Below, piece after piece: positions 14,230-63,696 of a stretch of 64,000 bases of DNA (within the stretch, counting starts at the first letter, position 1; each line of letters starts with the position of its first letter). The position numbers and the translations under genes were made by a program. Where the stretch lies: positions 567,916 to 631,915 of the forward strand of contig FN648564.1 of NCBI GenBank assembly GCA_000310025.1, written 5' to 3'. The stretch comes from Ectocarpus siliculosus. Lineage: Eukaryota > Sar > Phaeophyceae > Ectocarpales > Ectocarpaceae. Below the pieces are notes generated by a model that did no database searches, was not told the origin of the DNA, and was given only the letters and a program-made list of their open reading frames with translations.

Positions 14230-17228
14230 TTAAGACGTAGCCAGCTCATGAAACGGCTCTGGGCTTTCTGTGTCGAGGTACCACCCCCACACAAACACGC
14301 CTTCCAGTTTAACCTCGAAGCCCTTCTCCACGACGTGGAGAGAGTACCCGAAGCTAACGATCTCGTCGGCGCCATTACTGTCGACGCCGCCTTCGTTTTC
14401 CCTGCGCAGGCGGTGTCGACGGATGATTCTTCCCAGCGTCGCCAGCGAGTTCGCCTTCCTCAGCTGCTTCTCGACCCAGTTCCCTCGCCCCCCACTCTGG
14501 TCGAGGTTCTCGGCTTGTCTCCGAAGCGGGTTGCGCTTCTCCATGACGATTTGTCCCCCAATCGTCACCACCTGGACCGAGGGCGGCGGCAACATGGCGG
14601 AACGGTAAGTATCTCAAGTGTTGCAGTGTGGACGTCGTGCAACTCGGCAGCCTGTACTCTAGTCCAGAGTGCTGACCTCTACACTATAGTCCAGTGTACG
14701 AATGAGACTGTTCGATGATGCAATAGTACACGCGTTAGAGGGTGTTAGACGTGAGTTTCCTGCGGCACTTCATAGAACGAACATCAAAATGATAAACCCG
14801 GGCGTTGACCCGCGGTGCCGTGTTGGGTTAGGGACAAACAAGATAACGAAAAACGGGGAAGGGCAAAAATACTTGGCGTGGGAGCTCTAGAAATATAGAG
14901 TTCTTGATCTGCGTCGAGGAATGATATGAAGCGTCAAGAACAAAGCGTTATGAGCGGAGCGGTGCAGTCGGACGTACAGCACTCACTGCACACACACGCC
15001 ACGGCTGGGATTTTCCGAGGACCTACGAGAGAGAATGTACGGCTGTCGGGATACACGTGTTTGTGGGAATGCTAATTGCATGACCTCATGGCGATACTTG
15101 ATTCAAAGCAACCACAATCGATCAATTCCTTCCATTCCTTCCACTCACCACGTCCCCAGTCTTCGTAACCTGGAGCACGATGTCGTCCCCAAAGTACCGC
15201 TGCGGTGGGCTACTGGGGACGTTCTTGGCCACTGCTGTTGTTGCCTCACTTCCGTCGTCGTTGCTGCTGCTTCCGCCGGTACCGCTGCGTCTGTTTTCGT
15301 TGTCGTTGCTGTCTGTGGCCCTTCGGCCCTTCGATGAGCGGCTGCGGCGGCCCGCTGTTGAGGAAAGGTTGGGGAGAAGCCCAAGGCCAAGCGGTGCTGA
15401 CTCTTCGATTTCTTGCTTTGATTCAAAGTTCGTGTTAGGAATGTACGCCCCATCACACGGTTGGTAGCACAGACTTGTGAGCAAGGAATACGCATGTGCG
15501 TGTGTCAAGCTTGGTTGGGTTCTATCCTGGACCTAGAAGTGAAAACGTTTCGACGGCAACAAACATACAACGAGAGTAACAACATTATCCCTGACAGCAA
15601 GGATTTTCCGAACTCGTGTGCCAAAATTTGGAGTGCCACGAAGATTTCCCCCCCCCCGTTCTAGCGAAAAACACCAACAATCCCATACTTACAACTTTCG
15701 AATTAAGTTCACGTAGGACTCACGTACCACGGGTGTAATCCCCCCCCCCCCGCAACAACCGATTCTCTTGGTCAAAACAACTCAAGTATTTCGCGGTCTC
15801 GCGTCACCATCGCATCCAGCCGCGGCAAGGCGTAAACCTGAAAGCCAGTGGGGGAGGGGAGTGAAACAAAGGGCTTCCTAACAAATCCAGGGGCAAAGAA
15901 AGCAAGTTTAAACGCACCTTCAGCCGACCTCTCTGGCTGCTGCTGCGGGACCTTCTCCTCCTCGTCCTCGTCCTTGTCCTTGTTCACGTCCGACTTCTTC
16001 TTCCTCTCTCGAAGAAACTCTTGGAGTGTTCTCTCCATCTCGGCGACGACGTCTGCTGTCGGTTCCGTGGCCTCTCTCTCTTCGTCCTCGAGCACCTTCG
16101 ACAGTTCAAACCGTTTCCTCCTGCCGGGGAAGGAGCGCATGGCCTGTGCCGGATCGGCGGCGGCCAGTACCTTGAGATCGGCGCGCGGGTCTCCACCGTC
16201 GTAGTCGGGGTTCAGGCCCGACAAGATGTTTTCCGTGCTGACTGTCCCCGAGGGTCGGTTCTCGACGGCTTGGACCATCTCGTCGCGGAAAAACCGGTAC
16301 CGCTGCGGGCCTGTGTGAAGCAAGCTGCCATCGAACCCCATGGCCATCACGTGCTTCTCGTCCAGACTGGTCATCGTGGACGGGAAGCGTAGCTCCTCGC
16401 CCACCTGTCCGAATCGTCAGAAAGTCAGCAAACGCGGACAACAAACGTAGGCGCAAGATTGAGAACGCTACAACAGCAAGCACATCGCGTTGGCAAACGT
16501 GGTCATGTGCGCATACCGCGCGAAGGGGAGGGGAGGGGAGGGGGGGGGAGGAGGGATGAGCAATACATCGGGCACAAGAGATACTACAACCACGTGATGA
16601 ACGGAAGAGACGTGTCCGCGAAAAGTAACTGGAGGAAACCGAACGGCCAAACATCAGAAAAGAACAGGCAGGCAGCCAGAAAACGAAGCGGAAGCAGCAT
16701 CGAGCGTCATCCGTACCACTACAGCAGACCGGTGGCTAGACAAAAGACGGGTCTAACCAGGCAACCTGAGCCCAGCCAGAAGCTATCACATCTACCGTGC
16801 ACTCGTTTCGAAACGAAAAAACGCAAGTTCTAGCGGGGTTTCAGGCTTGAGGGCATCTTCCGTGAAGGGAAGTTGTCATTCACCGTAATGTAGGACGGAC
16901 TTAGTAGCTGTCGGTCTTGGAACGTGTGCTGAGCTGATGGAGAAAACAACGAAGAAAACTCCCCAACAGTGGAAGAGGGCGGTGTGGTTCCCGCGCGCTG
17001 CCTGCCCTGCTGCTGCTCGCCCTGCTGTTCCTGGTGCTGCTGTTCGTGGTGCTGCTGCTCGAGCTGCCGCCGTGCACGAAGCCGGCTGGGGACGTGCAGC
17101 CGCATCCAGGAGGGGTTCTCCGGGTAGGGTATCAAGACGGCCGACATGCCGGAGGCCGTGTAGCGGGCGTGGCAGTCGAAGAAGAACTCGCCTCCCGTCT
17201 GAACATGCACCAGGGAGTTGTTGTCTTC
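14230..17228 (-). CDS. Gene A C-terminal module: exons 16884-17228, 15918-16404, 15149-15411, 14230-14571
   Basis: The first exon starts EDNNSLVHVQTGGEF, has a Gln/His/Glu-rich linker and ends SPSYIT at a GTGAAT donor; this donor keeps phase 0 and avoids an in-frame stop further on. The second (VGEELRFPSTMTSLDEKHV) has a charged segment (ERKKKSDVNKDKDEDE). The phase-1 splice to the third exon is inferred. The last exon has VVTIGGQIVMEKRNP and FGYSLHVVEKGFEVKLEG. Copy C matches every border but splices to a further exon, whereas A reads to a stop with a changed C terminus. Confidence 0.7.
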
Positions 17229-20200
17229 CTGTGATTGATATAACGAGAGAGAAGCGATACCGGGGGTCGTCGAGCGAATGGGGAAATAAGAAAGGTAATT
17301 TGTGGCGCAATGGAGCCGGCATTCCGTTCCTACCGCCTCATCTACAGAACGTATTGTGTGTCTGTGACAATGGTTGTTCGATTAAATACGTTTAGCGGAA
17401 GGAAGATCACGGCGTGCCGCCTCGAAGTTTGATATGGCGGACACAGTGCGACTCTCTCACCGGACGAAAAAAACAAAAAAACAACGTATGCATCACACCA
17501 GTTCCGCTCAGGTCGCTCCAAGCATTGCCAAGCGAGAACAAGCGTCACTTGGAACGTGCTGCTTCGAAGCATGTGGTAGAGGAAGCAATACTTGGAGATT
17601 TCGAGCAAGAAATGGGGAATCCTGTAGATTTCCACCGACCTTCAACATGGGTGAATCAACTCAGCGTTTCATGTCTCGGCACAACTAGAGGCAAAGAGAC
17701 GGTGGTTCTAGCCAATCGTGATACCTACTCGGCGCATATTGAAGAGAGGGGAGGCGAAGGGTAGTTTTTCGTCCTTATTTGCCCTGTAACCACTTCTAGA
17801 CGCTCAGAGTTAGTCGCGACGGCAAGCGAACAACGAACACCAGCAAACAAATGACCATCCACAACAGTCGCCATGGTAACATCACGACAGCACACATGAC
17901 TATGCACCTCATATCCATCCTGGGGAGTTGGGCCCTGCCCGTGGGCGTGCAGTCCCACGTATCCCTGACGCTCCACGGTGAAAATCGCTCCGGAGACCCC
18001 CTGCAACACGGGAACACCAGCAGCAGCATCGCCTTGCTACGTTAAATTCAAACATGACTATTTGGGAGCACCAGAATTGCCACAACAACAACAACAACAA
18101 CAACAACAACATGAACAAGAAAAAGCGAGGGTTTTACGGACAAAATAACGTGCAAGCATCTGGCCGCCAACGTGCCTTGGTGAGTATTTCAAAGACGAGA
18201 GGTAGTCTTCCATCACATACACCCAGCTAACTTGCGTGGTTGCCTGCAAAGTATGGCCTACCGAACCTCGATATTTTTTTAAGAGCTAACAAAGCCCCTC
18301 ACCGGCCTGCCCACTATACCGCACTGCTTGTTTCGCCCCCGTTTGCACAAACGCACACATACATACCTCGAGCTTTTCCACGCGCATCGTGGAGACGCCG
18401 AACCTCAGCTTAGCGTTCTCCTTGACGTGGAAGCGAACACCCTCCAAGTGTAGGACGGGTGTCTGGGAGAGGATGATCAATTCCTCGGTGATCTCGAGCA
18501 GCTGCAAAAAATGTATTGGTTGTGGGGAGGTGGGACATCAGTGGGAGGGAAGGGAAGAGGGTGGAGGGTAGAGGGTAGCCGAAAGAAAGAACGACACAGC
18601 TGTGTGCGGGGGATGCCCTGATTGCTGTAGCTGTTGCTGTTGTTGCTGCTGCTGCCGCTTTGGTTCGTTTTGCCGTTGCATCTCATGGCAGGAGAATTTC
18701 TACCTAGGAAAACAAATAAGGACACCATAATAAAGAGGGACACACCCGAAACATTTGGCGGGCGGAGAGAGTGAGATCGAGAGAGAGAGAAAAATACATG
18801 ACGTGGAATGAAGGATCCATTCTTCGATTTCCTTCACACCGTCGTAAAAAAAAAAACTCACCGTCTCCTCCCGGCACACGATGTCGCCCGTGATGAGCAG
18901 GACTCCATTCATTCGCGTTCGACCCGAGCGGAGTTTGTCGCAAGAGTCGATTGCTTGGCCCGGGAGTTTCTCAATCTCGTCGGAGGAAGGAAAACGGCGG
19001 CGCCTAGCCTTAGCTTTAGCTTTCGCTCGAGCGTTGGCTTTAGCTTTCGCGTTAGCTTTTGCGTTAGCTTTCGCGTTAGCTCTAGCGTTAGCTTTTGCGT
19101 TGGTGCTGGTGTCGTCGTCGGTGTTGGTGCCGCTGTCGGGGTCGGCGTAGGAGTTGGTTTTTGTGTCGTCGTCCCCAGTCGTGGAAGCAGGAGGATCGGT
19201 GGAGGGAATGGGGGCGGGGGTCGAGTCGTGTCGCTGCGGGTCCTGGTCGGGCATGGAGACGACGGTGATGCTGGAGGCCGTGTAGCCGACAGCGGCCTCG
19301 AAGCGCGTTTTTGCGCCCTCCTTGGCACGCACGAGAGAGTGCGTGTCCTCCTGTTGGTAGCAACAAGGGGAACACAGCGAGGGCCACACATGTGAAGGCA
19401 GGCAGGCAGGCAGACTGACGGACATACGAAATACAGACGTGAGGACTGATGAGGAGCGACACAGCGAGATGCTGAGACAGCGAGGTAGAATCTGGGAATG
19501 ACCGAGAGCGGGAAGCACGACGAGAGGAGGGAGAGGGAAAGGGGGGGGGGGGTGATGGACTGCATCTCTTGGCTCAAGAGGTAAACACCATGTCAATCGC
19601 GAACGGTCACGGTGCATGGGATGTTAGCGGACCTTGTCTGCTGGCCGCCAAATGTTGAGGCGGTCCCCTTTGGGTCGAGGGAAAACCAATCTGTGGCCCA
19701 AGCGCGCGAACGGCGTGGAACAATATGCTCCACTTGATTTTTCTACCTGTTGCCTGTCTGTCAAAGTGGATGCGTGCGTTCAGATTATTTGCGGTGGAAC
19801 AGTGAAATTTCCAAACACACACCAGAGACACGCAGAATGTGTGTGTGTGAGAGAGGAGGGAAGCAATTGTTACGAAGATCCGCAGATGAGGTATGCAAGT
19901 GGAGCGATAGAGAGGGGCCGAGAGAGCTACAGATGGCACCACAGCATGAGGTGTTAAACAAAACCCCAGTCCATATCTGCCATGGTATACTCACTCGAGG
20001 CTCCTGACACATGATGTCGCCTCTGACAGACACCCTGCCGTAAAACGGGTTGCGGTCGAACTCCAGCTGGTCGCACGAGACAAGGAGCAAGGATTGGGCG
20101 CCGTCGACGGCGAGAAGCCCCTGGTTCGTGGCTGCGGTGGTGGTGGTGTCGCCCCCTGTGGTAGCCAAGTAAGGCTGGTCGGAGGGCGTCGAGTTGTCTC

Positions 20201-20806
20201 GCTGCGGGTTCTGGTCGGGTGTGGAGACGACAGTGATGCTGACGGCCGTGTAGCGGACGGCGGCTTCGAAGTTCAATTTTGCGCCCTCCTTCGCACGCAC
20301 CAGAGAGTGCGTGTCCACCTGTCGGCATGGCCAACACGGGAAACACGGGGGGGGGCAGACACAGGCACAGGTTTAGCCGGATGGCCGGACAGGCCGAAAT
20401 CAAGCAGATGGAAAGACCGGAGAAGAGACAGGCAACGAGAGAACGAGGCTGTGAGGTTAGGTGCGGGAATGGCCGAGAGCAGAGAAAACAAGAGCAAGAG
20501 GGGTGTGTGTGCCCATACGTTCATAGTCGTGCATGCCGTAGTCTTACGACGATTGATCCCCAGCCGGGACGGAGCACGCCGGGTTCTCACCGGACCAGGT
20601 TCTCACATCACCAACCACGAAGCGCCCTGAGGTATTCGGCGAGGCGCATGAAGGGTGCGCTTCATCCTGCTAAGGGTGTTGGGCATCTTGTGCTTACTTC
20701 CTTGCGTACGGATGACAGCTGCTAATGACTAAATTTAAAGGCTTTTGTGGCTTTTTCGATTGAAACAATCCGATGTCAAAGGCAGCGACGTGGCCATAGC
20801 AAACAA

Positions 20807-20887
<81 letters not shown>

Positions 20888-22428
20888 CGACAGCAGCAGC
20901 AGCAGCAGCAGCAGCAAAAAAAATAGCAACAACATCATTCTCACGTCCGTGGAATCCTCGGGGAACGGAATACACTCGTCAGCATACAGCCCTAGGGCGC
21001 CTTGCGGCTCGACCGCGAAGATCCCGCCAGACTGCCCCTGCCAGGCGGAACCAAGAGCAACGACAGCATCGAAAATGTCATTATCATCACAAACACATCA
21101 ATCACAAATAGCAGCAATACCGCAGCGATGGAATTATTCCCGAGAGGCCGTTGATTCCCGTCGCAAGGAGGTTCAAAGTGGTTCAATGTAGTTGGACTGC
21201 TGTTGACATCTTTCGACGTTTCGGTACACACCGGAGATGAACACGGCGAAACGCCTCCTTGCACGCCAGCAATTTGCTACAATCTTTGACTTTGAAGTAT
21301 GTTGCCCTACGATCGCTCCACGGAACCAGTTTTGTATGCCTCCGCGCCGACCGCAAGAGTGCGAGTCTGTCGGGAATGGGATGATGGTGGTTGCGTCGAA
21401 ATCCGAAATTTTCTCTCGAACGGATTACTTTGATGGTGGCCGTCTACATCTCCGAAGCTTTCTTGCGAAAAGGTTACCGTAGTTTGGAGTTGCAGCGTTT
21501 GGGAGGCCGAAATAAAGCTGTTCCCTTCGACTTCAGAGGGAAAAAATTCAAAAGCTATGTGGACTTGTTTCTACGATAACGACTAATGTCATCGACTCTC
21601 GGTTTGGCGATGGAGCGTCTGGCGGCTACTCCTTTTGCCCTTTCTTTTGGTAAAGCCGATCGATACCTTTGGCCCAGACAAAGTGCGGAAGGGGGCGGAA
21701 TCACGCAAATCGCGCCACCTTCTCGTGCGTAACAAGCGACATACAATATTTAGGGCAACCGGCGGAACAGACAAAGGGGAAAGAGGTGTTGTCGTTTCTT
21801 TACCCCCCCTAAGACTTTTCCTCGAAGTCCTATGACCAAAGTTTTCAAACCAAGCCTCATCACCTGTGTGGGTAGGGAAAGGCAAGAAAATCGAGCATCT
21901 CGCCGGACGCTCCACCCACACGACGAAGAGATCCTCAACTTAGAGCCGGTGTATGCGCCATTTGCCTTCAACCTTGAGACGATCCAACACAACGTACAGC
22001 TCTTCCCCCTTGCTCACGTCCCCGGTATTGGTGTCTTCTGACTAATAATGTGTCTCCCACACACACACGCTGTTTGATACCGCATGGCTGAGAGAAAACT
22101 TGTAGCTCCCCTCCCTCACCGCTGTCCTCATCGACAAAAAAACAAAACAAAAAGAGACGCAAGAATGCGCAGGTTTTACCTCGAGCGTTTCCAGGTGCAT
22201 CGTGGGTATGCCGAACGTCAACGACCCGGTCTCCCGCACGTAGAACGTGACCCCCTTGAACCAAAGAGTGGGAATCTTGGAAATGAAGTACGCCTTCTTG
22301 CTCACCTCAATCGTCTGCGTTGGGTTGTGAGTAGCGAGCAAACAGGAGGGAAGGAGGAGGGTGTACAGTGGCAAAAGCGGCATGGGATCGAGGGAGTGGC
22401 GAATGGTTGTGTAGATCTCGTACGTTGA

Positions 22429-22477
<49 letters not shown>

Positions 22478-25400
22478 GATTCGTTGTTGGTGGAGAGGGC
22501 GTTGGTAATGTAGTCTTGGCGTTTCAAGTACGGTTGACTTGCCGAACGTGTGTAAGAAAAAAAAAACCTGGGTGTAGACTGGCAGTTCAGTTCAATCCTA
22601 ACGTATGGAGCGATCGAAAAGGATGTCCCCCATTCAGCGATGCTCGAATTCATTTGCGGTGGACATGGACATGACCTAGAGCACCTCGGTCAAATACACC
22701 TGTCGCTGCCAAAACCCCCAAGATAAGAAGAAAGTCTCAACTAGTTTATCATCGCCTGCGTTCAACACATGGGCAGTGGAAAAATGCCACTGCTACCAAA
22801 CAAGAGCTATGGAAAGAGTGTGTGTGGGAGAGAGAGGAGGGGACATTTGACATCGCAGCACGAGTTAGTACGCAAACAAAACCAATTCGAACAGTAAAGG
22901 GGTCCTCACCCGAAGTGGGAGGGGGGGGGAGAGAGAGAGTGCGAAGCGAGACGACAACGAGGCACAAGCTTTTTTTTCAAAACAAATCAAGCTGTCGAGG
23001 GAAGAGAGTGCTGAACTCTTCTCGCATTAAAAACCGAAGGCAAAGTACCGCAGGAGGGGCGGGTAGAGAGGGGCTCTTCTGTGTGACCACGGGTTGGAGT
23101 AAACGGCACTACAGGTAGTGCTGTGAGCGCTGATTTGAAGCCAAGACAAAAAAAAAAAAACTGTCAAGGAGTACTGTACTCACTCGCGCCTCCTGGCAAA
23201 TGACGTGGTCCGTGACTACAACGATGCCGTACACCGGGGTCCAGCCGGCTGTCAGGTCGTCACACGAGTTCAGGGTCGACGCCACGATGTTGTCAATGTC
23301 GTCGATCCGAGGCAGGCCCTGGTGTGTGCCGGCATCGGTGTTGTCCCCTGTGACAGAGGAGGAGGGCTGGTCGGGTGGGTTGTTGGAGCTGTTTATGGTG
23401 TTGATATTGTTGTTGTTGAGGGGCTGCTGTTGCTGGTGCTGCTGTAGCTGCTGCTTTCCCTTGAGGTTGAGGTTGGGGTTGGCGACACCGTCTTGCCCCA
23501 TGGTAGATGAGGAAGATGGGGGGGGTGCGCTGGGTGGATTGTCTTCTTGGTGCTGCTGGTGTTGCTCAGACGATGGGTTGGTGTTGGTGTCGTCGTCGGG
23601 ATTGATGCCACTGTCGGGCTCGGTGTGGGAGTTGGCACCGTTCTCGGCCGCATTCATGGCAGAACGTTGCTCGGTGGAAGGGCGGGGCTCTTGCTGCTGC
23701 GGCTGCTGTTGTTGCTGTTGCTGAAAGAGTCCACGAATAGAGAAAGGAAGGGGAGGGTATGGTCGTGTTACGTTGATTTTCGATCACCTCGTCCTTAGCC
23801 TCTGGTGTACCATACATTTTCATAACCATACGACAGCGTCATTTCTAGGCACAAACTCGTCAATCAATGTCTGTCTGTGCGGTGATGAAGGAAGGAGGGA
23901 GGCAAGAATGGACGTCTCCAACGAGGAGGGGTGAATCGCGCAACACAAACGGCAAGGACCAGCCAACATCTGTGTCCGCCAGCACAACCGTCTTAAGCTT
24001 CAACGGAAAGAGGAAAGACCATATGCAAACACGGTACTACCCGCGGGTGATGAAAGAGAGAGAAGGGGGGGGGTCAAGAGGAAGTCGTGATGATGCCGGG
24101 TCATCACCCTCCTCCTCTTGGTACACGTGCACCACCAAAATGCACAAGAAACCTCTCCCTCTCACCCGCTCCTCGTCAACAACACCAGCGTTGGCATCAC
24201 CGGGGCCAGCAGCGTTGTGGTTGTCGTCCGTGGCCGTAGACGGGTGCTCCACGGTGGATCGGTGAGTGCCTCTGTTGCTCTCGTCCTTGTGGTTCTTCTC
24301 CTTCTTGTTGTCCTTCTTCTTCTCCTCCTCGTTCCTCATGGAGATCGTCATAGTCGAGGCCGTGAAGCTGGCCTTACCGTCGAGCTCGAACCTCCCCTCC
24401 TTCTTCAGGGCCATGAGAGAGTGCACGTCCTCCTGGGGCGACGATCGGGATGGAGAGAGAGGGGGGGGGGGGGGGGTGAGCTGGTTCTAAGCTTTCTGGC
24501 CTGCAAGCCCAGACACGACCTTGACAACATCCGGTGACACGCCGGCCAAACGAGGCTGAACACACAGCACAGAAGTAAGGGAGGTCTCTTCGCCCATGAA
24601 CCTATGTACATGTACCTCATTGGTGTTGCCGAAAAACAAAAAACAATTTCCGAGACAACAAAACAAAACCTGATGTGTTGGTCGATGCCAGCGTACGAAG
24701 ACGAGGAAGCACCAAACATCCTTACGGACTGAGCTTGACAACAGTAGCCTCGAAAAGAGCAAGACCCACAAAACCAAAGCACCACCAACAATGCCAAAAA
24801 AGGTCAATGCCATTGCCATGTAGAATAACACCACCGAAACAAAACATCCTAGGGCATACCATACCATACCATAAGCACTAACCTCCGTGCCGTTGTCGGG
24901 CGATGGGCTCCCCATGTCAGCACTTATTGCCAGGACACCTTGGGGCTCCACCGTGAAGAGCTCGCCGGATTCCCCCTGCGCGGCGGAAATAACAGGAAGG
25001 AAGGAAGGAAGGCTTCGGTCAAAGAAACGGCTTCTTTCGTTTCGGGACAAACGTACAAGCACCAATCTACCAACAACCACCACCACAACCTTGCAACAGC
25101 GAAGACACCGAAGAACAGCAATCGCAACCACAGCCACAGCTGTAGCATCGGCTATCACGACCACACGGGAAGACCATGCAGCACACTTCAAGTGACGTCG
25201 TGTGTCCTGCCAACGGATTTTCGTGTGTGCGGTATCCTCCTGTCCTCCCCCGACCCCTCCCTTTTCGTTGTTGTTGTATCAAAAATCCCATTTTATAGGT
25301 CGAACTTTCTCGGAGAGAAAAAGAGGAAGAGAATCGGGGCGGGCCTCCTCCTGCCCCGCCAACATGAATCCGGATGATCGGGAAAACACGGCCAGAACTC

Positions 25401-28400
25401 CACGCACCCGAAACCATCGCTCAATCATTGGAACGAGAAGGTTGGGGGGAGGGGGCGTCCCGCCCCACCTGAGTGTAGTGTTCAGACATGTTTTCAACCA
25501 ATCATACATCCTAACGTCCTGCTTAGGTCCTGCTTGTGTTCGCACACAAAAAACATGCGGTACATACCCCGCAAAGCCCCCCCCACACCCCCCCATGCTC
25601 AGTTTCCAGCATCATCCATCATCCATCATCCATCATCCCCGCAAGCGCAAGATTGATTTACTCGCATAAGCGCGCACCTCGAGTTTCTCCAAGACCATCG
25701 TGGCCACGATGAATGTCAACGAGACCTTCTCATGGACGACGAAGTGCACGCCCTTGAGACGGAGATCGGGCTTGTCGGAAACAACGATCACGTCGTGGTC
25801 GACCTCGAGAATCTACGATTTTCATGGACGTCGGAAGGGAGAGGGTGCAAGGCAAGGAAACAGGGGACAGGAGACACAGATAGAGCAAGGAACGAAACCT
25901 GTTGCAAAAAAGGGTTGAAGATTGTTCTCGCCGATGACGGTGCTCTTGCTGCTTTTCTGGTGCCCCATCTGATGCTGACGACGAGAACGAAAGAGATAAT
26001 GACGATGGTAAAATTGATATACTCAATGCCAACGTTGCCCTGTCTCTTGGACATGTGGGTGTTGACCGTCGCATCGCGTGCAGGAAAAAAAAAACTCGCT
26101 TGTGGGAGTAGGGTGGGGCAGTGCTCTACGACAGCAATCCGTTGCAATTGTAGTGAAAAGCCTCGGGCTAGTACTGGGCAATGTGGAACGTACTTCTACG
26201 TACGCAGCAGCGCTTCGTTCTTAACCACCAAAAAAAAAAAAAAAAAGAGGACACAGAGAGAGAGGCAAAGAGACATATCGAGAGGCAGCAACAGAGACAA
26301 GAAACGAGACCGGGTTAGCCCACCATTGTCATTGAGAATGACACTTCCACAGCGATGATAAAGCTAACAGCTCGCTCACCCGTTCCTCCCTGCATATGAT
26401 GTCATCATCGAGGAGAAGCACGCCGGACACGCCTTGGACGGGCGTTCGCTCGAACCGGAGCTCGTCGCAGGACTCAAGGGTATACAGCGGGAGGACGTCA
26501 TCGACAACGGCAAGTGTTGGGGCTGGGCGTGACATCTCGGTTGCGGTGGCAGTACCGGTGGTTTTCGGGGTACCGTTGGAGGAACCACCGGTGTTGGCAT
26601 TGCCAGCGGTGCTGTGCTTGTCCCCTGGGGTAGGGGAGGGGCGGATGGCGGGAGAGGTGGGGGGGTTGTTGTTGTCGCCGTTCTCAAAGAGCTGCGGGAT
26701 GGGGACTCTGTGCTGCTCCTCCGGCTCCTCGACGGTCTCATCGAGCTGGGGGATGGGGACTGTGTGCTGCCCCTCCGGCTGCTGGACATCGAACGCAAGG
26801 ACGGCTCCCATGTCCAAGGCCGTATGGCGGATCTGGCCATCGGCGTCTAACGCTCCTTCCTCCTTCACGAGTTCCCTGGAGTGCTTGTCTTCCTTCTTGA
26901 CGAAATGGGGAGACATGACGACATGGAGAGATAAAGGATTAGACAGACAGACAGACAAGAAGCAAGAGGGAGAGCAGAAACAAGGGGTTGGTAATGGTCG
27001 CCTAGTTTCTCCTACAGTCCAAGAGCTATTGAAACGAGCTTGCCGACCGCATCTGCGTTGAAACCGCGACAACTTCGTGAACTAGATATCACCGCGTAAC
27101 AAGCAAGGTACGCCTAGAAAGAGACATCATTGAGACGGGGGTAGTGCTCGCCGATGAACCTGCTGCGATTGCTGTCGACACCTCCAAAAGCATCCCTTCT
27201 CCGGAGCGACGTCAGTGACGACGGTGGCAATTGCAAAACGCACACATGCACTGGACTCGCGTCAAGTTTTGGGGTTGTCTCTCTCGCAAAAGGTTTGTAG
27301 ACAGATCAATCAACAGTATGGCATTCCGGAAGGCACCCATTCTCGAATTCCACTCGTTGACACCGACGAAACTTCCTTGGTCAATGGGTTGGCACGGTCG
27401 ATGCTTAAACACACGCACACACAAACCAAAAAATACGCAAACAACAGCACCACCACCGACAAGAGCAGCAACAAACGTTGTTCCTCACCGCCATGCCGTC
27501 GTCGGGCAAGCGACCAGCTCCCCCTGGCGGTTCGACAGCAAGCACTTCCGCGGAGTCCCCCTGCCCGAGGAAAGATGGAACGCGACATCAAACGCAGCAG
27601 GAACAGGAACAGCAACAGCAACAGCAGCAACCAAAGCAAGCCTTCGGTGAAATAACTGCTTGCGTCATTCGCATACATCAGGCAGATCAACACCACCACG
27701 AGCATCAACAAACTTGTAACACCGCGATGACGACCGCGTGGCGACCTCACCCAACCCGGCAAGTTTTGACTTGACCCAAGGAGAAAAGGGTGTCAGACGA
27801 ACGGTTTCCAAGGAGGCAAAGTGTGTTCCGGGCATTGTAGGACCATAGCAAGCACCTCAACAATTCAGACTGCGAAACCCCCATCCGACATCGTTCGGTT
27901 TAGCAAACATCGCAGGAACCACATACATCTATCAACACACGGCAAATAATCAACTCAAACACGAATTTAACGCCTCCTTTCTCTATCCATCGACTCTCCT
28001 TCACATCCTACATCCAACATCCGACACGCGCCGAAGGCGATCGAGGCTACAACGGAAGCGACGATATACGCCGACATCGACGACTTGCATCTGAAGGGCG
28101 TTGACTTCGACGTACGACAGGACGCCGGCTTGTGGATCGTCGTGGCCACAAGGGCCTCCATGGTCATGGTCGCCACGATGATCCACAACCCGCGTTCTGT
28201 CGTACGTCGAAGTGGATGCCCTTCAGGTACAAGTCGTCGATGTCGGTGTACACCCGCTGTTACCTCGATCTCGATGGGATTCGGTCGGGGTGAAAGGTGT
28301 GGGATGTGGGATGTGGGATGTGTAGTTCGTGGATAGAGAAGGGAGGGACTATGGTCGTGAATACGTTGATTTTTCGATCACTTTGTCCTTAGCCTCTGGT

Positions 28401-42898: not shown

Positions 42899-42941
<43 letters not shown>

Positions 42942-51900: not shown

Positions 51901-52392
51901 TAAGTGGAACACCTGGCGTGGATGGATCGCATCACGGGCGGTTGGCTTTTGAGCCTGCCAAAAGATCTCCGAGCGTACTTTCGGGTGGTTCGGTGCCAGA
52001 GGCTGAAGCCCGACACCTCGATAAGTTGCAACGAACTCAGCAAGCACGCGGTTGGAGAGAGAGACATGCACACACGCAGAAGATGCAGGCATCGGAAAGA
52101 AGTTCATCACACTTTTACGGCTGCGACTCTCACACACCTTGGTCTCAGCGCAGACAATGTCGCCCATAATGGCAACGGAGCCGCGAACGAGTGTCCTGTC
52201 CATCACGAGATCGTCGCAGCTGTAGATGTACTTGGCGTCCTCCGCTGTTGGATCCCCCCCGTCTTGGGCAGGGGTGTCAGCTGAGGTGATGAGCACCACT
52301 AGCACGACCAGCAGCCGAACAAGGTTCTTCGCCACCGTGACGAGGCCCGGAGGGCGGCGGTCTCGCCGAGGAGAGGAGATGGCAGAGGCCAT
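38780..52392 (-). CDS. Modular secreted protein, paralogue B (shortened, about 8 exons)
   Basis: Exons on the minus strand are 52392-52138 (ATG, signal peptide LVRLLVVLVVLITSADTPAQ), 51379-51239 (b), 45595-45506 (c), 43180-42950 (head-only a), 41592-41095 (a), 40526-40392 (b), 39730-39638 (c) and 39133-38780 (head-only a running to a TAG). All lengths are multiples of three, giving about 598 aa. Compared with A it lacks the module 2 tail, b and c, and everything after module 4. Its last exon reads on through NADADVIDVTSDGG into a unique C terminus; an alternative donor (CGCAG|GTAGTA) overlaps the stop codon. The intron between exons 2 and 3 holds a 5-kb retroelement, and the next intron a 1.4-kb insertion. 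The open frames suggest a functional short paralogue, but transcription is untested. Confidence 0.62.
42898..42941. repeat. (AAC)n microsatellite at the truncated module 2 'a' exon of gene B
   Basis: About 14 AAC units directly past the donor of the exon at 42950. In A the same place encodes the SCGDL tail, so the array marks the point where the tail is lost. A poor remnant, ICQELR in gene sense, is at about 42730. Confidence 0.9.
43441..44820. mobile_element. 1.4-kb insertion with GGCGGTAC arrays (probable non-autonomous element)
   Basis: Absent from the matching intron of A: the flanks 43420-43440 and 44821 onward join at about 29090-29100 there. Both ends (43485-43720 and 44500-44800) are packed with variants of ATGGCGGTACT and GGTACCGCC, like subterminal arrays of transposase binding sites. 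No transposase and no clear terminal inverted repeat were found. The interior holds a tRNA-like unit at 44396-44456. Confidence 0.55.
44396..44456 (-). tRNA. tRNA-like Pol III unit (degenerate)
   Basis: The minus strand has an A-box-like TGTCTAGTGCACG, a perfect B box GGTTCGAGTCC, a 6-bp anticodon-type stem (CACGTT/AACGTG) with a 10-base loop, and a run of six T directly after the 3' end. It is 61 bases long with a short D arm and imperfect acceptor pairing, so it is more likely a tRNA-derived sequence or pseudogene than a working tRNA. Confidence 0.35.
45881..45926. repeat. Direct repeat, left end of the Penelope-like insertion
   Basis: 46 bases identical to 50940-50985, beginning CCACATCCCGTTCGACTGTG. 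Penelope elements often carry such LTR-like flanking repeats. Confidence 0.85.
48483..48606. other. Assembly gap (124 N)
   Basis: A run of N inside the reverse-transcriptase region. Its true size is unknown. Confidence 0.99.
50940..50985. repeat. Direct repeat, right end of the Penelope-like insertion
   Basis: Identical partner of 45881-45926. Beyond both copies lie TAGTGCCGG motifs (45.96-46.08 and 51.02-51.08 kb). Confidence 0.85.
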
Positions 52393-52844: not shown

Positions 52845-52882
52845 TCACGTTGCTTCACGTTGCTTCACGTTGCTTCACGTGC
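52845..52882. repeat. Short tandem decamer upstream of gene B
   Basis: TTGCTTCACG is repeated three to four times here, once in the matching upstream region of A (near 32260). Confidence 0.8.
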
Positions 52883-54997: not shown

Positions 54998-57900
54998 ACC
55001 CCCCAAGGATATCGTAACGATCTTCTTGTAGTTCATTCAGTGGTTAGATGCGTCCTTTGTTGGTCGTCCTGCCGTTCCCCTTACACCTGTCACACAGTAC
55101 GAACCCCGTGAATCAATACCGTCGCGGGCCCATCGGTTGAGAGACTCAAGAGCTTGCCCTACAAGAACGACAGATTTTGTGTGTACGTCATGCTTCTTTG
55201 GATATGTCTTCAGCGTGATTAGTGGTTCCTTTGGTGGAATGTATGTGACCTACTCGCAGCGGCCGTTTTTCGTGAGTTTCCGTTTAGCAGGCGCTCTCGG
55301 GCATTCGGATGCGGATAGAGGCTCTTTCGTGTGCAAATATAGGAACCTTGCATTGAATGCAAGTGTAGACTATCATTCATTTATCGCGCAGAACCGAACT
55401 TCACTTTGTGAAATGACGACGACTCCCTCCATGTTCCAGCATTTCTGGCCGTGTAATACCGGGTACTTCTTTTGGGAACAGTCGTGCAGTAAACGGATGG
55501 TGTTCTGTGTAGCATTTTCAGGCAAGTCGCGTGTTGTCCTGCTGTGAACTATTGCTGCTTGCGCACATGGCTGGACGCTCTGGAGGAAGTGAAAATCCCA
55601 TTTCCCGACGACCTCCCGGTCGGATTCGAGCCATCACTCCTTTTCATAGTGACCGGGGTGCTGTGCTTATGGGGCATAGTACTCCTGGCTGACTCGGATA
55701 GAGCAACCGAGGCGATCGTCGCCACACTCAAAGCATCGTTCGGCATCACGTACGAAGTGCAATACTGTTCATCATCTGGCCTGTATTGAAAAAATAAAAG
55801 TTCATCACGCCATCTTCTCGGCCGCACACCTTCCCTCATTGTGTCACGACATTTTTGGACGGGACCACACTCTTCGCATGTGAACCCACCGTGAAATCTA
55901 CTGTGTACATCACACCCTACTATGTATGAATGTACTCACGCCCTCTTCTTGTTTGTAGCTGCGTGCTCGAAGGTCACACTCAAGGTGGTCCTCCCGACCG
56001 AAACTGGTACATTTTTTGCAGAACGAGAGCCCCGCATCGATGTATTGTCATTCATACGAACCTCAGCCCTGCTCGTTTCGTGCGCCGAAGCATACAGCGT
56101 GCTGAACCGCAAGTTCTCATCGAGAGAACTAGTGTATTTACTACAAAAAGACATCGGTAATTATAGGTCATGAGGAGTGCGGAGTATCGCCTTCCGGCCG
56201 GCACACGCACCATTATTGACTCCCCCCCCCCCAACGCCCATATCGGACAGACAATTTGCACGTGTCAACCACCAACAGCCAACAGCAAACAAGCACGGGT
56301 CAAGAGCACTAGCGACGGCTGCTCGCTCGCTAGCTGCGGACTTGTTACGCCAGGAAGAAGACTGAAGTAAGCCCAGGGGCGAAAGGTACACCATGCAACC
56401 TGCGATCTCATACTTTCAGCGAGTGCGTACACCTCGACCGACGTTATCGAAAAAAACTACCACATACTAACCAGCACACCAGAGGGATAGTGACAGGCGC
56501 CATCCGCCGAAAAGGAAATCGGGCCCCCACTGTAGCTGAATAATCATATTAAAGAAAATAAATCGACTACTTTCTTGCAAAATAACACGCCCAGAACCAT
56601 CGTCCAAGAAGTATCGCAAGAAACAAATCAGTTCGAACTCCGATATTTTTTCGCCACACCTCCCCGGATCTTTTTTACTCTCCTCGTCAATCGATTCCGG
56701 AGGGGTACAATCAACCCAATTGAAACACATAAACTGGTCCGTCGTGCTTCGTTTGTTTAATCCATGCCGACGTCAAACTCCAAGATCTTAGCAGAGGATA
56801 TTTCGACCCCGTCACCCACTCTCAAACAAAATTCGGATATCTACCGCGGGTGTCGGAAACAGAACTCACACGTACCTAGCGCGTGTCCCACATCAAACGG
56901 TTGCGGGTTTTCTCTGTCGACGTCCCACCCCCACACAAACACGCCGTCTAGCTGCACTTCGAAGCCCTTCTCCGCGACGTGGAGAGAGTATCCAAAGCTA
57001 ACGATCCCGTCGACGCCGTTGCTGCCCCCGCTGCCGTTGCGTTCTCTGCGCAGGCGGTGTCGCCGGATGATTCTTCCCAGCGTCGCCAGCGGGTTGGCCT
57101 TCCGCAGCTGTTTCTCGAGCCAGCCCCCCTGCCCCCCACTCGGGTTTCGCTTCTCAACGACGATACGTCCCCCGACCGTCACCACCTAGACAGAGGGCGG
57201 CGGTAGTATGGCGGAAAGGTAATCATCTCAAATATCTAGTGTGGACGTCGTACACCTCTGTATCCTGTACTCTAGTCCAGTGTACGAACGAGACTGGTCG
57301 ATGATGCAATACTCGTACATGCGTTGCAAGGTTGTCAGACGTAATTCTCCTGCGGCACTTCATAGAACGAAAATCAAAATGATCAACCCGTGCGTTGAGC
57401 CGCGGTGTCGTGTTGGGGTTAGCGACAAACAAGATGCCGAAAAACGGGTAAGGGTAAAAACACTTGGCGTGGGAGCTCTAAAAATATAGCGTTCTTGATC
57501 TGTGTCGAAGCATGAAGCGTCAAGGACAGCGCGATGAGCGGAGCGATGCAGTCGGACGTGCGGCACTCACTGCACACACACGCCACGGCGGGGATTTTCC
57601 GAGGACCTACGAGAGAGAATGCACGGCTGCCGGGATACACGTGTTTGTGGGAATGCTGATTGCATGACCTCATGGCGATACTTGATTTAAAGCAAAAAAA
57701 AATGATCAATTCCTTCCATTCCTTCCACTCACCACGTCCCCCGTCTTCGTAACCTGGAGCACGATGTCGTCCCCAAAGTACCGCTGCGGTGGCCTACCGG
57801 GGACGTTCTTGGCCACTGCTGCTGTTGCCTCATTTTTGTCATCGTTGCTGCTGCTTCCGCCGGTACCGCTGCTTCTGTCTTCGCTATCGTCGCTGTCGGT

Positions 57901-60900
57901 GGCCCTTCGGCCCTTCGATGAGCGGCTGCGGCGGCCCGCTGTTGAGGAAAGGTTGGCGAGAATTCCAAGACCAAGCGGTGCTATGTCTTCGATTTCTTGC
58001 TTTGATTCAAAGTTTGTGTTTCTAACTTTTAACAATACGGTATGTACGCCCCATCGCACGGTTGGTAGCACAGACTTGTGAGCAAGGAATGCGCTTTTGC
58101 GTGTGTCAAGCTGGTCGGGCTCTATCCTGGACCTAGAACTCAAAACTCTTCGACGGCAACAAACAAACAACGAGAAAAGCAACATTTCCCCGTCAGCAAG
58201 GGTTGTCTCGAACTCCTGTGCCAAAATTTGCAGTGCCACGTAGCACTCTTTCCCCCCCCGTTCTTGCGAAAAACACCAACAATCCCATACTTACCAATTT
58301 TCGAATTAAGTTCACGTAGGACTCACGTACCACGGGTGTAATCCCCCCCCCCCCGCAACAACCGATTCTCTTGGTCAAAACAACTCAAGTATTTCGCGGT
58401 CTCGCGTCACCATCGCCTAAACCTGAAAGCCAGTGGGGGAGGGGAGTGAAACAGAGGGTTTCCTAACAAATCCAGGGGCAAAGTAAGCAGGTTTAAACGC
58501 ACCTTCAGCCGTGCTCTCTGGTTGCTGCTGCGCGACGTTCTCTTCCTTGTCCTCGTCCTTGTCCTTGTTCACGTCCGACTTCTTCTTCCTCTCGCGAAGA
58601 AACTCTTGGAGTGTTCTCTCCATCTCGGCGACGACGTCTGCTGTCGGTTCCGTGGCCTCTCTCTCTTCGTCCTCGAGCACCTTCGACATCTCAAACCGTT
58701 TCCTCCTGCCGGGGATAGAGCGCATGGCCTGTGCCGGGTCGGCGGCGGCCAGTACCTTGAGGTCGGCGCGCTGGTCTCCACCGTCGTAGTCGGGGTTCAG
58801 GCCCGACAAGATGTTTTCCGTGCTGAGTGTCCCCGAGGGCCGGTTCTCGACGGCTTGGACCATCTCTTCGCGGAAAAACCGGTACCGCTGCGGGCCTGTG
58901 TGAAGCAAGCTGCCATCGAACCCCATGGCCATCACGTGCTTCTCGTCTAGACTGGTCATCGTGGACGGGAAGCGTAGCTCCTCGCCCACCTTCCCGAATC
59001 GTCAGAAAGTCAACAAACGCGGACAACAAACGCAGGCGCAAGATTGAGAACGCTACAACAGCAAGCACATCGCGTTGGCAAACCCGGTCATGTGTAAAGA
59101 GAGTGCGCATACCGCGCGAAGGGGAGGCGAGGGGAGGGCATTACATCGGACATATGAGAAGCGGCAATCACGTGATGAGCGGAAGAGACGTGTCTACGAA
59201 AAATAACTGTGGAGGAAACAGAACGGAGAAATAATGAAATAATAGAAATGAACACGCAGGCAGCCAGAAAACGAAGCGGAAGCAGCATCGAGCGTCATCC
59301 GTACCACTACAGCAGACCGGTGGCTAGACAAAAGACGGGTCTAACCAGGCAACCTGAGCCCAGCCAGAAGCTATCACATCTACCGTGCACTCGTTTCGAA
59401 ACGAAAAAACGCAAGTTCTAGCGGGGTTTCAGGCTTGAGGGCATCTTCCGTGAAGGGAAGTTGTCATTCACCGTAATGTAGGACGGACTTAGTAGCTGTC
59501 GGTCTTGGAACGTGTGCTGAGCTGATGGAGAAAACAACGAAGAAAACTCCCCAGCAGTGGTAGAGGGCGGTGTGGTTCCCGCGCGCTGCCTGCCCTGCTG
59601 CTGCTCGCCCTGCTGCTCTTGGTGCTGCTGCTCATGGTGCTGCTGCTCGAGCTGTCGCCGTGTACGAAGCCGGCTGAGGACGTGCAGCCGCATCCAGGAG
59701 GGGTTCTCCGGGTAGGGTATCAAGACGGCCGACATGCCGGAGGTCGTGTAGCGGGCGTGGCAGTCGAAGAAGAACTCGCCTCCCGTCTGAACATGCACCA
59801 GGGAGTTGTTGTCTTCCTGTGATTGATTTAACGAGAGAGAAGCGATACCGGAGGTCGTCGAGCGAATGGGGAAGTAAGAAGGGAAAATTGTGGCGCAATG
59901 GAGCCGGCATTCCGTTCCTACCGCCTCATCCACAGAACGTATTGTGTGTCTGTGACAATGGTTGTTCGATTAAATACGTTTAGCGGAAGGAAGGTGCCGG
60001 CGTGCCACCTCGGAGTTTGATATGGCGGACACAGTGCGACTCTCTCACCGGACGAAAAAAACAAAAAACGACGTATGCATCACACCAGTTCCGCTCAGGT
60101 CGCTCCAAGCATTGCCGAGCAAATCAAATGAAACATGTTATTTCGAAGTATGTAGTAGAGGAAGCAATACTTGGAGATTTCGAGCAAGAAATGGGGACTA
60201 CTGCAGATTTCTTCCCTTTTCGAGCTAGGTGGTTCAACTCAGCGTTTCATGTCTGGGCACAACTAGAAGCAACGAGACGGTGGTTTTAGGCAAGTGTGAC
60301 ACTACTCGGCGGACATTGAAGAGAGGGGAGGGGAAGAGTAGTTTCAGAGGGGAGGAGAAGGGTAGTTTTTCCTCTTTACGCTGTAGGCACTTATAGACGC
60401 TCAGAATTAGTCGTGACGGCAAGCGAACGACCAACACAGCAAATGACCATCCACCGCAGTCGCCATGGTAACATCACGACAGCACACGTGACTATGCACC
60501 TCAGATCCATCCTGGGGAACGGGGCCCTGCCCGTGGGCGTGCAATCCCACGTATCCCTGAGGCTCCACGGTGAAAATCGCTCCGGAGACCCCCTGCAACG
60601 CGGGAACACCAGCAGCAGCATCGCCTTGCTACGTTAAATGCAAACATGACAATTTGAGAGCACCGGAATTGCCACAACAACAACAAGAACAACAACAACA
60701 TGAACAAGAAAAAGCGAAGAGCTTACGGACAACGTATCGTGCGTGCATCTGGTTGCAAACGTGCCTTGGTGAGTATTTCAAAGACGAGAGGTAGTCTTCC
60801 ATCACATACACCCAGCTAACTTGCGTGGTTTCTGGCACATTATGGCCTACCGAACCTCGGTATTTTTTTTTGAAGAGCAAACAAACCCCCTCACCGGCCT

Positions 60901-62340
60901 GCCCACGTTGTTGCTCTACTAGTTTCGCCCCCGTTCACGCACACGCACACATACTTACCTCGAGCTTTTCCACGCGCATCGTGGAGACGACGAACCTCAG
61001 CTTAGCGTTCTCCTTGACGTGGAAGCGAACACCCTCCAAGTGTAGGACGGGTGTCTGGGAGAGGATGATCAATTCCTCGGTGATCTCGAGCAGCTGCAAA
61101 AAATGTAGTGGTTGTGGGGAGGTGGGACGGTGGGGCATCAGTGGGAGGGAAGGGAATGGAAGAGGGTGGAGGGTAGCCGAAAGAAAGAACGACAGAGCTG
61201 TGTGCGGGGGATGCCCTGATTGCTGTAGCTGTTGCTGTTGTTGCTGCTGCCGCATTTGTTCTTTTTGACGTTGTATCTCGTGACACGAGACTTTCTACCT
61301 TTGGAAATGAGATAGCCAAAGAGAGACAGAGGAAAACAAAGATACAGAGAAAATAATAAAGACGGACACACCCGAAACATTTGGCGGGCGGAGTGAGTGA
61401 GATTGAGAGAGAGAGAACGACATGACGTGGCATAAAGGATCCATTCTTCGATTTCCTTCACCCCGTCGTAAAAAAAAAACTCACCCTCTCCTCCCGGCAC
61501 ACGATGTCGCCCGTGATGAGCAGGACTCCTTCCATTCGCGTTCGACCCGAGCGGAGTTTGTCGCAAGAGTCGATTGCTTGGCCCGGGAGTTTCTCGATCT
61601 CATCGGAGGAAGGAAAACGGCGGCGCCTGGCTTCAGCTTTAGCGTTAGCTTTAGCGTTAGCTTTCGCATTAGCTTTAGCTTTCGCGTTAGCTCTAGCGCT
61701 AGCTCTAGCGTTAGTGCTGGTGTCGTCGTCGGGGTTGGTGCCGCTGTCGGGGTCGGCGTAGGAGTTGGTTTTTGTGTCGTCGTCCCCAGTCGTGGAAGCA
61801 GGAGGATCGGTGGAGGGAATGGGGGCGGGGGTCGAGTCGTGTCGCTGCGGGTCCTGGTCGGGCATGGAGACGACGGTGATGCTGGAGGTCGTGTAGCCGA
61901 CAGCGGCCTCGAAGCGCGTTTTTGCGCCCTCCTTGGCACGCACGAGAGAGTGCGTGTCCTCCTGTTGGTAGCAACAAGGGGACCACAGGGGGGGTCACAC
62001 ATGTGAAGGCAGGCAGGCAGGTAGACTGGCATACGATACACAAACGTGAAGACTGATGAGGAGCGACACGGCGAGATGCTGAAACAGCGAGGTAGAATCT
62101 GGGACGGGAAACATGGCGAGAGGAGGGAAAGGGGAAGAGGGGGGTGATGGGCTGCATCTATTGGCTAAAGAGGAACACACCATGTCAATCGCGAACGGTC
62201 ACGTTGCACGGGATGCTACCGGATTTGGTCTGCTGCCCGTCAAATGTTGAGGCGCCCCCCTTTGGGTCGAGGGAAAAGCAACTTGTGGCCCAAGCGCTAA
62301 CGGCGTGGAACAATAAGCTCCACTTGATTTTCTACCTGTT
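54998..62340. repeat. Segmental duplication, right member of the A/C pair
   Basis: Aligns with 12721-19760, and further to the right with 20930-22310. It continues beyond the right edge of the window. Confidence 0.85.
55544..55789 (+). CDS. Putative small membrane-protein exon, partly conserved in A
   Basis: The open frame reads EEVKIPFPDDLPVGFEP, then one hydrophobic helix (SLLFIVTGVLCLWGIVLLA), then SDRATEAIVATLKASFG. The copy at 13310-13500 keeps the first part but loses frame in the helix. It may be an exon of a plus-strand gene convergent with gene C, with a further candidate exon at about 55960-56110 (SKVTLKVVLPTETG). The family is unknown, and it could be a decaying gene in both copies. 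Confidence 0.3.
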   Translation: MNYCCLRTWLDALEEVKIPFPDDLPVGFEPSLLFIVTGVLCLWGIVLLADSDRATEAIVATLKASFGITYEVQYCSSSGLY

Positions 62341-63696
62341 GGCCACGGGTGTAGTAAGTATTCGATTTAGGGTGCTTTCAACAGTACCAACAACAACAGC
62401 AACCACACCAAGATCAATCTCACGTCCGTTGAATCCTCGGGGAGCGGGATAAATCCGTCAGCATTCATCGCCAGGAAGCCTTGCCTCTCGACCGTGAAGA
62501 TACCCTCAGACTGACCCTGCCAGGCGGAACCAAGAACAACGACAGCATCAACAACGACATTGACATAACTACAGTATCATAACAACTACGAGATTGGATC
62601 AGGAGCTTCGATGACATCATTCTGAAGAGGCCGTCGTTTCCCGTCGCAGCAGGGGTTGTCGGTCCAACGTGTTTGCACTGTTCGGAAATTTCAGCACACG
62701 TCGGAGATGAACATCGCGAGTAAATCACGCCGCAAGTCCTCCTTCCACCCGCTGGGAAAATATCGTTACCCTGCGATCGCTCTGCGGAGCCACCCTTGAG
62801 CACGATCACCCCGGTTGCAACAGTGTGAGCTTCTCGGAAAATTGGATGATAGTTTGACATCCGAAGCTATCGCGATAATCAGCTCGTTCGAAAACACAGG
62901 GTTGTGGAGACAGAAATAAGCCAAACCTATTTGTTCCCTCCAATCTCAGGAGTACACGATCAAAAGCCTTGTGGAGTTGTTTCTACGATACGTGCTGAAT
63001 AAAGCAAGCCGCGGTTTGGCAATCGAGCATAGCCTGCACGACTATGGTACTATATGTATTTCAAACATCGATTTCCTTGGCCCAGATGAAGTGCGGAATA
63101 GTCAGCAAGGTGGCAGCAGGGGGTGGATTTCTGTGTTTCGCGCGAGCGTCTCGTGTGTAGCAGTCGGCAGGGATTAAAAAGGACGGGGTAGTAGAGAAAG
63201 GAGAAGGAGGACTAAATAGGCATTTTATTGCCCCCCCCCTGATGAATGCTGGAAGGATCTACACAACAACTCAACAGCTGTGTCGCGAGGGAAGGGCAAG
63301 AGAAACGAGGACACTGCCGGGGCTCACAGATACCACCATATTCAATTTTATCCCCGTTGTGTCCGCCGCGTGTCTTGCATCCGGGGACGATCTACTACAT
63401 CGCACAGCTCTTCCGCCTTACCCCCTTCCCGGCGTGTCTTCTGCTGCATGTGTCTCCCACACACGCGCGAGCACTGCTACGCAGATACAGTATGGACGAG
63501 AGACAACCGTGCTCTTCTTTTTCCCAAAATATCAACAAACACAAGCATCCACACATGTTACCTCGAGAGTTTCCAGGCGCATCGTATTTACGGCGAACCT
63601 AGCCACCGCGCTCTCCCGCACGTGGAAGCTGATACCCTTGAATCGAAGATTGGGTAGCATGGATACGATGTAAGCTTGCTCGTCGATCACGATCGT
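56757..63696 (-). CDS. Modular secreted protein, paralogue C (3' part; 5' part beyond the window)
   Basis: Minus-strand exons visible are b 63696-63562 (LRFKGISFHVRE), c 62516-62424 (GQSEGIFTVERQG), a 61961-61485, b 61093-60959, c 60592-60500, a-like 59816-59472, then 58989-58503, 57995-57733, 57185-56876 and 56818-56757 (TAA). Phases match throughout, including phase-1 junctions 58503/57995 and 56876/56818, giving about 799 aa of C-terminal sequence. It lacks the solitary a exon of A (module 5). Its last exon (GDGVEISSAKILEFDVGMD) has no counterpart in A, where about 370 bp are missing. In the second of the C-terminal exons, A and C differ by an indel only after the proposed donor, which supports that border. 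Confidence 0.72.

Follow-up and report, generated by a model that had tools for sequence, protein, structure and literature searches.

Exon shuffling has been reported for two classes of brown algal genes. In most ROCO genes of these algae each leucine-rich repeat (LRR) is encoded by one 72-bp phase-2 exon, and these exons are reported to undergo shuffling, diversifying selection and alternative splicing (PMC11378527); NB-ARC-TPR genes form the second reported class (PMC12879055). Here we analyse a 64,000-nt window of the Ectocarpus siliculosus genome (C464:567916-631915) that carries three paralogous genes, A, B and C, all on the minus strand and assembled from exons of three types, a, b and c. 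On balance we favour the view that they belong to a small undescribed brown algal family of large extracellular proteins, probably polysaccharide-binding, that are built of solenoid beads; no description of the family was found in the accessible portions of the literature searched. The family shares the exon-cassette principle with the ROCO-LRR and NB-ARC-TPR genes and, judged from its sequence, appears to lack those defining features of either class that we tested. Two further protein classes bear on it: animal extracellular mosaic proteins are encoded by symmetrical exons (EGF and fibronectin type modules), usually of phase 1, and the right-handed beta-helix fold class includes the brown algal mannuronan C5-epimerases. 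A preliminary description of the locus was right in its core observation and incomplete, and its interpretation of the locus as a diversifying recognition system was half right.

Six-frame profile searches of the window, using profiles seeded with most of the pieces then found, placed eight b exons, eight c exons, ten a-heads and nine a-tails on the minus strand, together with fragments, at E values of 4e-10 to 3e-25 for the listed pieces; independently of these seeded profiles, one spliced gene A domain matches relatives on other contigs (for example on C22 at E 1.8e-10). Gene models were obtained by predicting splicing from genomic DNA alone. An AG acceptor stands before all eight b exons, all eight c exons and all ten a-head starts, a GT donor follows all eight b exons and all nine a-tail ends, and every module exon edge in the window is compatible with AG/GT introns in phase 0. 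The intact b exons measure 135 bp in six of eight instances and 144 bp (gene A) or 141 bp (gene B) in the others, exactly as first described, and c is indeed usually 93 bp, six of eight having this length and being followed by GT; the two module 1 c exons (29833 and 45595) measure 90 bp and end ...ACACCG/GTA. Twenty a exons were tested from genes A, B and C and from three relatives outside the window (D, E and G). All 20 are open in one frame from a-head through a-tail; AG precedes 19 of them, the exception being a gene E exon whose entered sequence began within the exon; a GT donor follows every one of the 20, one gene A exon having been entered with its donor codon included. As a single a exon encodes the closing part of a domain (a-head), then a low-complexity linker, then the opening part of the following domain (a-tail), the natural unit is the domain a-tail, b, c, a-head, which is 136 to 144 residues long and has three exons per period with phase-0 introns throughout. 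The module exons are real and coding, and the modular paralogues and phase-0 cassette exons claimed initially are borne out by exon edges, by the phase at all b, c and a edges tested and by domains that can be aligned.

This layout resembles that of animal mosaic proteins in being secreted, in its beads on a string, in its single exon phase class and in its conserved cysteines, and departs from it in phase (0), in using three exons per module with movable sub-domain cassettes, and in an unrelated domain. With the ROCO-LRR genes (PMC11378527) it has in common in-phase repeat exons in a brown alga, a repeat number that varies among paralogues and, by prediction, a solenoid form of the repeats, whereas exon size and phase differ, b being 135-144 bp, c 90-93 bp and a variable, all in phase 0.

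An alignment of the 22 domains that could be fully assembled from genes A to E, G and I, from which the incomplete H4 and the duplicate E1 (nearly identical to D1) were left out, has six invariant columns (C3, G15, C25, F54, G88 and D108). Most of these residues are of structural types (Cys, Gly, Phe); D108 is the only Asp, and acidic or His residues form no conserved cluster in this alignment. Folding of the b exon alone, from an alignment of the eight window copies, gave five models, the best with a mean predicted local distance difference test score (pLDDT) of 87.8 and the other four with 83.6 to 54.4; its strands (residues 2-4, 7-11, 16-20, 24-26, 31-35 and 38-42) fall into two groups of three at a spacing of 22 to 24 residues. 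Along the 140 columns of the domain, the autocorrelation of mean hydrophobicity peaks at lags 8, 15 and 22 (p 0.019, 0.012 and 0.009, uncorrected). Model and periods together suggest a three-sided beta-solenoid of 22-residue coils in which b would supply two coils, in support of the solenoid-like pattern noted at the outset. Given a coil of 22 residues by both measures, the two invariant cysteines, which lie 22 residues apart, would be one coil apart.

No Pfam family reached its cut-off in the 22 domains or in the C-terminal exons scanned (CT2 and CT3-CT4, described below), no solved structure matched the domain in a profile search of PDB sequences, and no known beta-helix sequence family was found in Pfam, NCBIfam or PDB sequences. 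LRR and TPR matches are likewise absent from the Pfam scans of modules and C-terminal exons, in agreement with the claim that the modules are neither; a match to a known single-function family, which had been named as a refuting result, was sought and none reached the cut-off, so the reading is not refuted on this point. Since there is no Pfam counterpart above cut-off and none among solved sequences, this would be a new extracellular family for the lineage, and one with a neat gene architecture. A number of weaker hits were taken as chance: four Pfam families with one member each (best E 0.073), YejG (E 0.029) in CT2 and radial spoke (E 0.026) in a CT2 frame, the best NCBIfam match (E 0.039), and RbcX (E 0.035) in a PDB phmmer search with one domain, which vanished with a profile. 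Four of the 22 domains matched PHROG 1997, a phage family without known function, weakly (best E 0.0018), perhaps reflecting a shared solenoid pattern. Single spliced domains compared with viral contigs (5 and 4 pattern matches) and genome contigs (51), by a method that detects close relatives only, gave no confirmed match. Unlike the ROCO-LRR proteins with their GTPase, the present family appears secreted and gives no Pfam match to LRR or ROC-COR GTPase domains. It is like the NB-ARC-TPR genes, as reported for brown algae (PMC12879055), in its tandem gene copies and in the shuffling of repeat exons, and unlike them in lacking a Pfam match to TPR or NB-ARC and in repeats that are predicted to be beta where those are alpha.

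The exon list of the preliminary description holds for the modules and overlooked a constant C-terminal region of three more exons (CT2, CT3 and CT4), which spans 16404-14233 in gene A and 58989-56841 in gene C. Gene A has CT2 (VGEELRFPS...; 15918..16404, donor read as phase 1), the conserved core of CT3 (RYFGDDIVLQVTKTGDV; 15149..15199, exon 5′ end not fixed) and the terminal exon CT4 (...EGVFVWGWY...; 14233..14571) with the stop codon; the corresponding features of gene C lie at 58503..58989, 57733..57783 and 56841..57185, again with the stop codon in CT4. Relatives were sought in 189 Mb of genome (492 contigs) with three domain types and two C-terminal exons as queries, after which the loci were read, and all locus counts from these searches are lower bounds. 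CT2 occurs in at least eight long places and one fragment and CT4 in at least nine places, one of them weak. CT2, CT3 and CT4 follow the last a exon in the same order in genes A, C, D, E, G, H and I, and CT4 stops from 3 (D, E and G) to 27 (C and H) residues past the WGW motif. For the intron between CT2 and CT3, a donor-like site common to A, C, D and E and likely sites in H, G and I give a phase 1 reading, in contrast to the phase-0 module introns. A separate neighbouring gene was considered for these exons and rejected, because the same order follows the modules in seven loci on three contigs and CT4 stops near the WGW motif. With the 5′ end of CT3 trimmed to whole codons and gene D given one fused exon, splicing yields frames of 1810 codons from 22 exons for gene C and of 1730 codons from 20 exons for gene D, both with no internal stops. 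Past the stop codons of A and C, the downstream DNA at 12721-14135 and 54996-56384 is 76% similar. A model of the CT4 exon was uninformative (pLDDT 44.8).

Secretion was judged by hydropathy only, from the N-terminal hydrophobic stretch, which is present in genes A, C, D, E and I. In the spliced products of C and D the sole strong hydrophobic stretch is the N-terminal one (residues 18-36), with no second hydrophobic segment in either, and by hydropathy, as proposed originally, the proteins would be secreted and also soluble.

Gene A opens with a1 (31547..31807, ATG at 31807), which carries the start codon, a signal peptide with the hydrophobic stretch LLRLLVVLVVLITSA and the first a-tail (YSCDDL...CAETK) and ends in a phase-0 GT donor. 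It is followed by b1 (144 bp, 30203..30346; AG/GT, phase 0), c1 (90 bp, 29744..29833; donor CACCG/GTAAG) and a2 (a-head 1, linker, a-tail 2; 330 bp, 28509..28838; splice edges, open frame). Module 2 is a remnant (27486..28256) with a shortened c and a broken b beside an inverted repeat (28067-28250), whose arms (28067-28128 and 28189-28250; 62 bp, 87% complementary) are made of b-exon sequence; the module seems to have been broken by inverted duplication. Splice edges bound a3 (513 bp, 26380..26892; open frame), b3 (135 bp, 25678..25812) and c3 (93 bp, 24883..24975). The next piece, a-head 3 with a-tail 4 (23184..24432), is split or damaged, as both frames are closed between 24040 and 23783. 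After b4 (135 bp, 22180..22314) and c4 (93 bp, 20945..21037), both with splice edges, a5 (a-head 4, linker, a-tail 5; 19995..20318) has no b5 or c5 downstream, and a6 (a-head 5, linker, a-tail 6; 489 bp, 18862..19350; open frame), b6 (135 bp, 18367..18501) and c6 (93 bp, 17908..18000), all with splice edges, lead to the last a exon (a-head 6 and a Gln-rich tail; 345 bp, 16884..17228; donor ACG/GTGAATG), at whose donor position seven genes have a Val codon (GTN). The first estimate of about seven modules fits the seven a-type exons; complete modules number four, with two partial ones, module 2 (broken b) and module 5 (without b and c).

Gene B begins with a1, including a signal peptide (52138..52392), b1 (141 bp, 51239..51379) and c1 (90 bp, 45506..45595), all with splice edges, and a-head 1 (43070..43180), after which neither profile search nor locus reading found a-tail 2, b2 or c2; its similarity to gene A stops just before a-tail 2. 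There follow a3 (a-head 2, linker, a-tail 3; 498 bp, 41095..41592; open frame), b3 (135 bp, 40392..40526) and c3 (93 bp, 39638..39730), the latter two with splice edges, and a-head 3 (39029..39133), downstream of which no C-terminal exons were found. It therefore has two complete modules and one partial, not three to four, and seems to be truncated, without the constant C-terminal region. The long b1-c1 intron contains reverse-transcriptase-like open frames (47609-48843, partly masked as N), which we take to resemble Penelope-like elements; no Pfam match was obtained for 47609-48415.

Gene C is cut by the window edge and starts outside it, near C464:643.3 kb. Within the window lie b5 (135 bp, 63562..63696), c5 (93 bp, 62424..62516), a6 (477 bp, 61485..61961; open frame), b6 (135 bp, 60959..61093), c6 (93 bp, 60500..60592) and the last a exon (345 bp, 59472..59816), all with splice edges. 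What had been taken for a third arrangement is thus a paralogue seen in part, the whole having six modules, and C alone among the window genes stays open along its entire length.

On the plus strand of the window, an inverted CT2 fragment (5744-6007, E 1.6e-13) reads as a dead piece of another copy, and an open frame at 8480-9802 has an alcohol dehydrogenase GroES-like domain just under the Pfam cut-off (E 2e-4). The GC content of the window runs from 39 to 61% per 2 kb. The EsV-1-7 motif is abundant in brown algae, and the genome searched gave 880 candidate EsV-1-7 cysteine motifs, 150 of them scored, with none in 14 control genomes.

We identified at least ten family loci, A to E on C464, G, H and J on C22, and I and K on C138, with further fragments at C464:901-904 kb and at 5744-6007 of the window. 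CT2 to CT4 are complete in seven of the ten; in the stretches fetched K has CT2 and CT3, J has CT3 and CT4, and B has none. Genes A to E and G contain 2 to 6 complete domains. Genes D and E are near-copies of each other in opposite orientations (95% over 7 kb). The a exons of D and E have linkers with 18-residue repeats of the QPEEQQTVSIPQLVETVE type, and the matching a exon measures 675 bp in D versus 621 bp in E.

Comparison of these loci indicates how modules turn over. Among 28 typed modules, module type was shared with the nearest exon of another gene in 96 of 102 comparisons, a consistency check rather than an independent test because types were assigned from our own locus readings and modules without a same-type partner were left out. 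The free swapping of exons proposed initially is therefore not supported, while exon loss and one c-exon exchange can be traced at the DNA level. As all module introns are in phase 0, the frame can survive when b, c or a whole module is lost or exchanged. A stretch of 1698 bp holding b5 and c5 in gene C is absent from gene A, where the flanks abut without overlap and a5 and a6 still join in frame. In gene D an a-tail and b are missing, and a-head 2, linker and c form one open stretch, with identical spacing in E; the unlike c and a-head of module D2 were for this reason not accepted as a swap. The old c acceptor is still present in this exon, which may be spliced either way. Module 4 of gene E retains only c and part of the a-head, plus an inverted b fragment, and within the 17 kb fetched gene J shows only module 1, CT3 and CT4. 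Module 3 of gene C is a mosaic. In the tract C464 637601 to 636957, comprising the c exon, its acceptor and most of the next intron, it matches the region that follows module 2 of gene D at 82% of informative sites, versus 22% outside the tract (223 sites), the remaining sites agreeing with D module 4. A contrast of this size arose in 0 of 500 permutations, and either gene may have been the recipient. Cassettes are thus indeed lost and exchanged, but rarely.

Selection on the modules was assessed by pairwise ratios of non-synonymous to synonymous substitution (dN/dS) in 21 module pairs, which share genes and are hence non-independent. Seventeen lie at 0.17 to 0.72, one of which, D2/G1, pairs unlike module types; three exceed 1 (1.05, 1.46 and 1.50) and one has no synonymous change. 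The pair C3/D4 includes the mosaic, and two further comparisons, D3/E3 (two exons) and CT2 of A/C, are also below 1. Departure from neutrality was checked for CT2 and ten of the 21 pairs by Fisher's test, with rounded counts and no correction: CT2 and six pairs were significantly constrained and four pairs were indistinguishable from neutral, including all three above 1 (p 0.42 to 1.0). The exons are accordingly coding and for the most part constrained, with selection that appears mainly purifying. With 17 of 20 ratios below 1 and the three above it indistinguishable from neutral, the diversifying selection implied by the preliminary description is not supported, and the family differs in this from what is reported of the ROCO-LRR exons (PMC11378527).

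We therefore favour an extracellular family in which each protein would be a string of domains of about 140 residues, joined by low-complexity linkers of varying length and ending in the constant C-terminal region. The invariant cysteines would pair and cap each domain, and the beads would lie within the extracellular matrix or on its surface, where they would bind a repetitive ligand. Our guess at this ligand is a matrix or microbial polysaccharide, the likeliest candidate since the alga has an alginate and fucan wall. Module number would set reach and valency. Evolution of the family would proceed by duplication and deletion, with cassettes occasionally exchanged between modules and with selection mainly purifying. 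Several points weigh against this proposal. The five b-exon models spread from pLDDT 87.8 to 54.4, the periodicity p values (0.009 to 0.019) are uncorrected for 38 lags, and the best b-exon model has no structural match (a single Foldseek match at E 5.5; none with VIA-align). Gene B lacks the C-terminus, gene A has closed frames (24040-23783) and a broken b2, and J and K look incomplete in the stretches fetched; some members of the family, among them two of the window's three genes, may therefore be dead.

Such decay is what would be expected of a neutral birth-and-death cluster, with a few working genes, many decaying copies and module variation as functionless noise from recombination among similar introns, and we regard this as a tenable, if clearly less probable, account. 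It draws on the truncation of B, the broken module 2 and gutted module 5 of A, the reduction of E module 4 with its inverted b fragment, the remains of J, the inverted fragment at 5744-6007 and the fragments at C464:901-904 kb. It sits poorly with the purifying selection on several pairs, including the diverged D3/G3 and D4/G4, with the open frames of C and D over 22 and 20 exons, and with losses in A (b5 and c5) and D that stay in frame.

A diversifying recognition repertoire, in which module exons of secreted solenoid receptors or effectors are shuffled for new binding specificities, appears unlikely. It would be in keeping with the secreted layout, the modelled solenoid, the phase-0 cassettes, the differing module numbers and the one c-exon exchange, and brown algae are reported to shuffle exons in ROCO-LRR candidate receptors (PMC11378527). 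The dN/dS values given above run counter to it, as does the module identity kept by 96 of 102 exons; a second hydrophobic segment was not found in C or D, nor did the scanned C-terminal exons show a signalling domain. A large repertoire is not seen either, the family being small with ten loci found (a lower bound). An immune recognition role is so far unsupported, the diversification it would need not having been found by pairwise dN/dS. It is very improbable that these are cell-wall enzymes of the right-handed beta-helix class, for example mannuronan C5-epimerases or polysaccharide lyases, that have diverged too far to be recognised: the secreted layout, the beta-solenoid model with its suggested three strands per coil of about 22 residues, the alginate matrix of the alga and its large epimerase families (PMC8307928 gives 28 genes for E. 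siliculosus) speak for this, but there is no sequence match, with no Pfam family, alginate-enzyme catalytic domains included, above cut-off in modules, CT2 or CT3-CT4, the invariant residues are mostly structural with no recognisable active site, and the beads would be short, of about six coils with linkers, where the class has one long helix.

The extracellular family favoured here may, at long odds, also work as a sub-domain cassette system, in which single exons would be exchanged, dropped or spliced out, altering one solenoid face while keeping the rest of the fold. This is conceivable because b would equal two solenoid coils and all module edges are in phase 0; a c exon with most of its downstream intron is common to different modules of C and D, and one bead of A lacks both b and c. 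Should alternative splicing act in the same way, one locus would yield a combinatorial set of secreted binding proteins, and brown algae would have a third, extracellular exon-cassette repertoire besides ROCO-LRR and NB-ARC-TPR. In the A loss and the C exchange, the clearest cases, the breakpoints lie in introns and leave the frame intact, so that exon cassettes act below the domain level, and their phase differs from that given for the LRR exons of brown algae (PMC11378527). The family is an addition to a lineage in which multicellularity evolved independently, and it provides a compact case for asking whether independent multicellular lineages converge on modular secreted proteins built from symmetrical exons.

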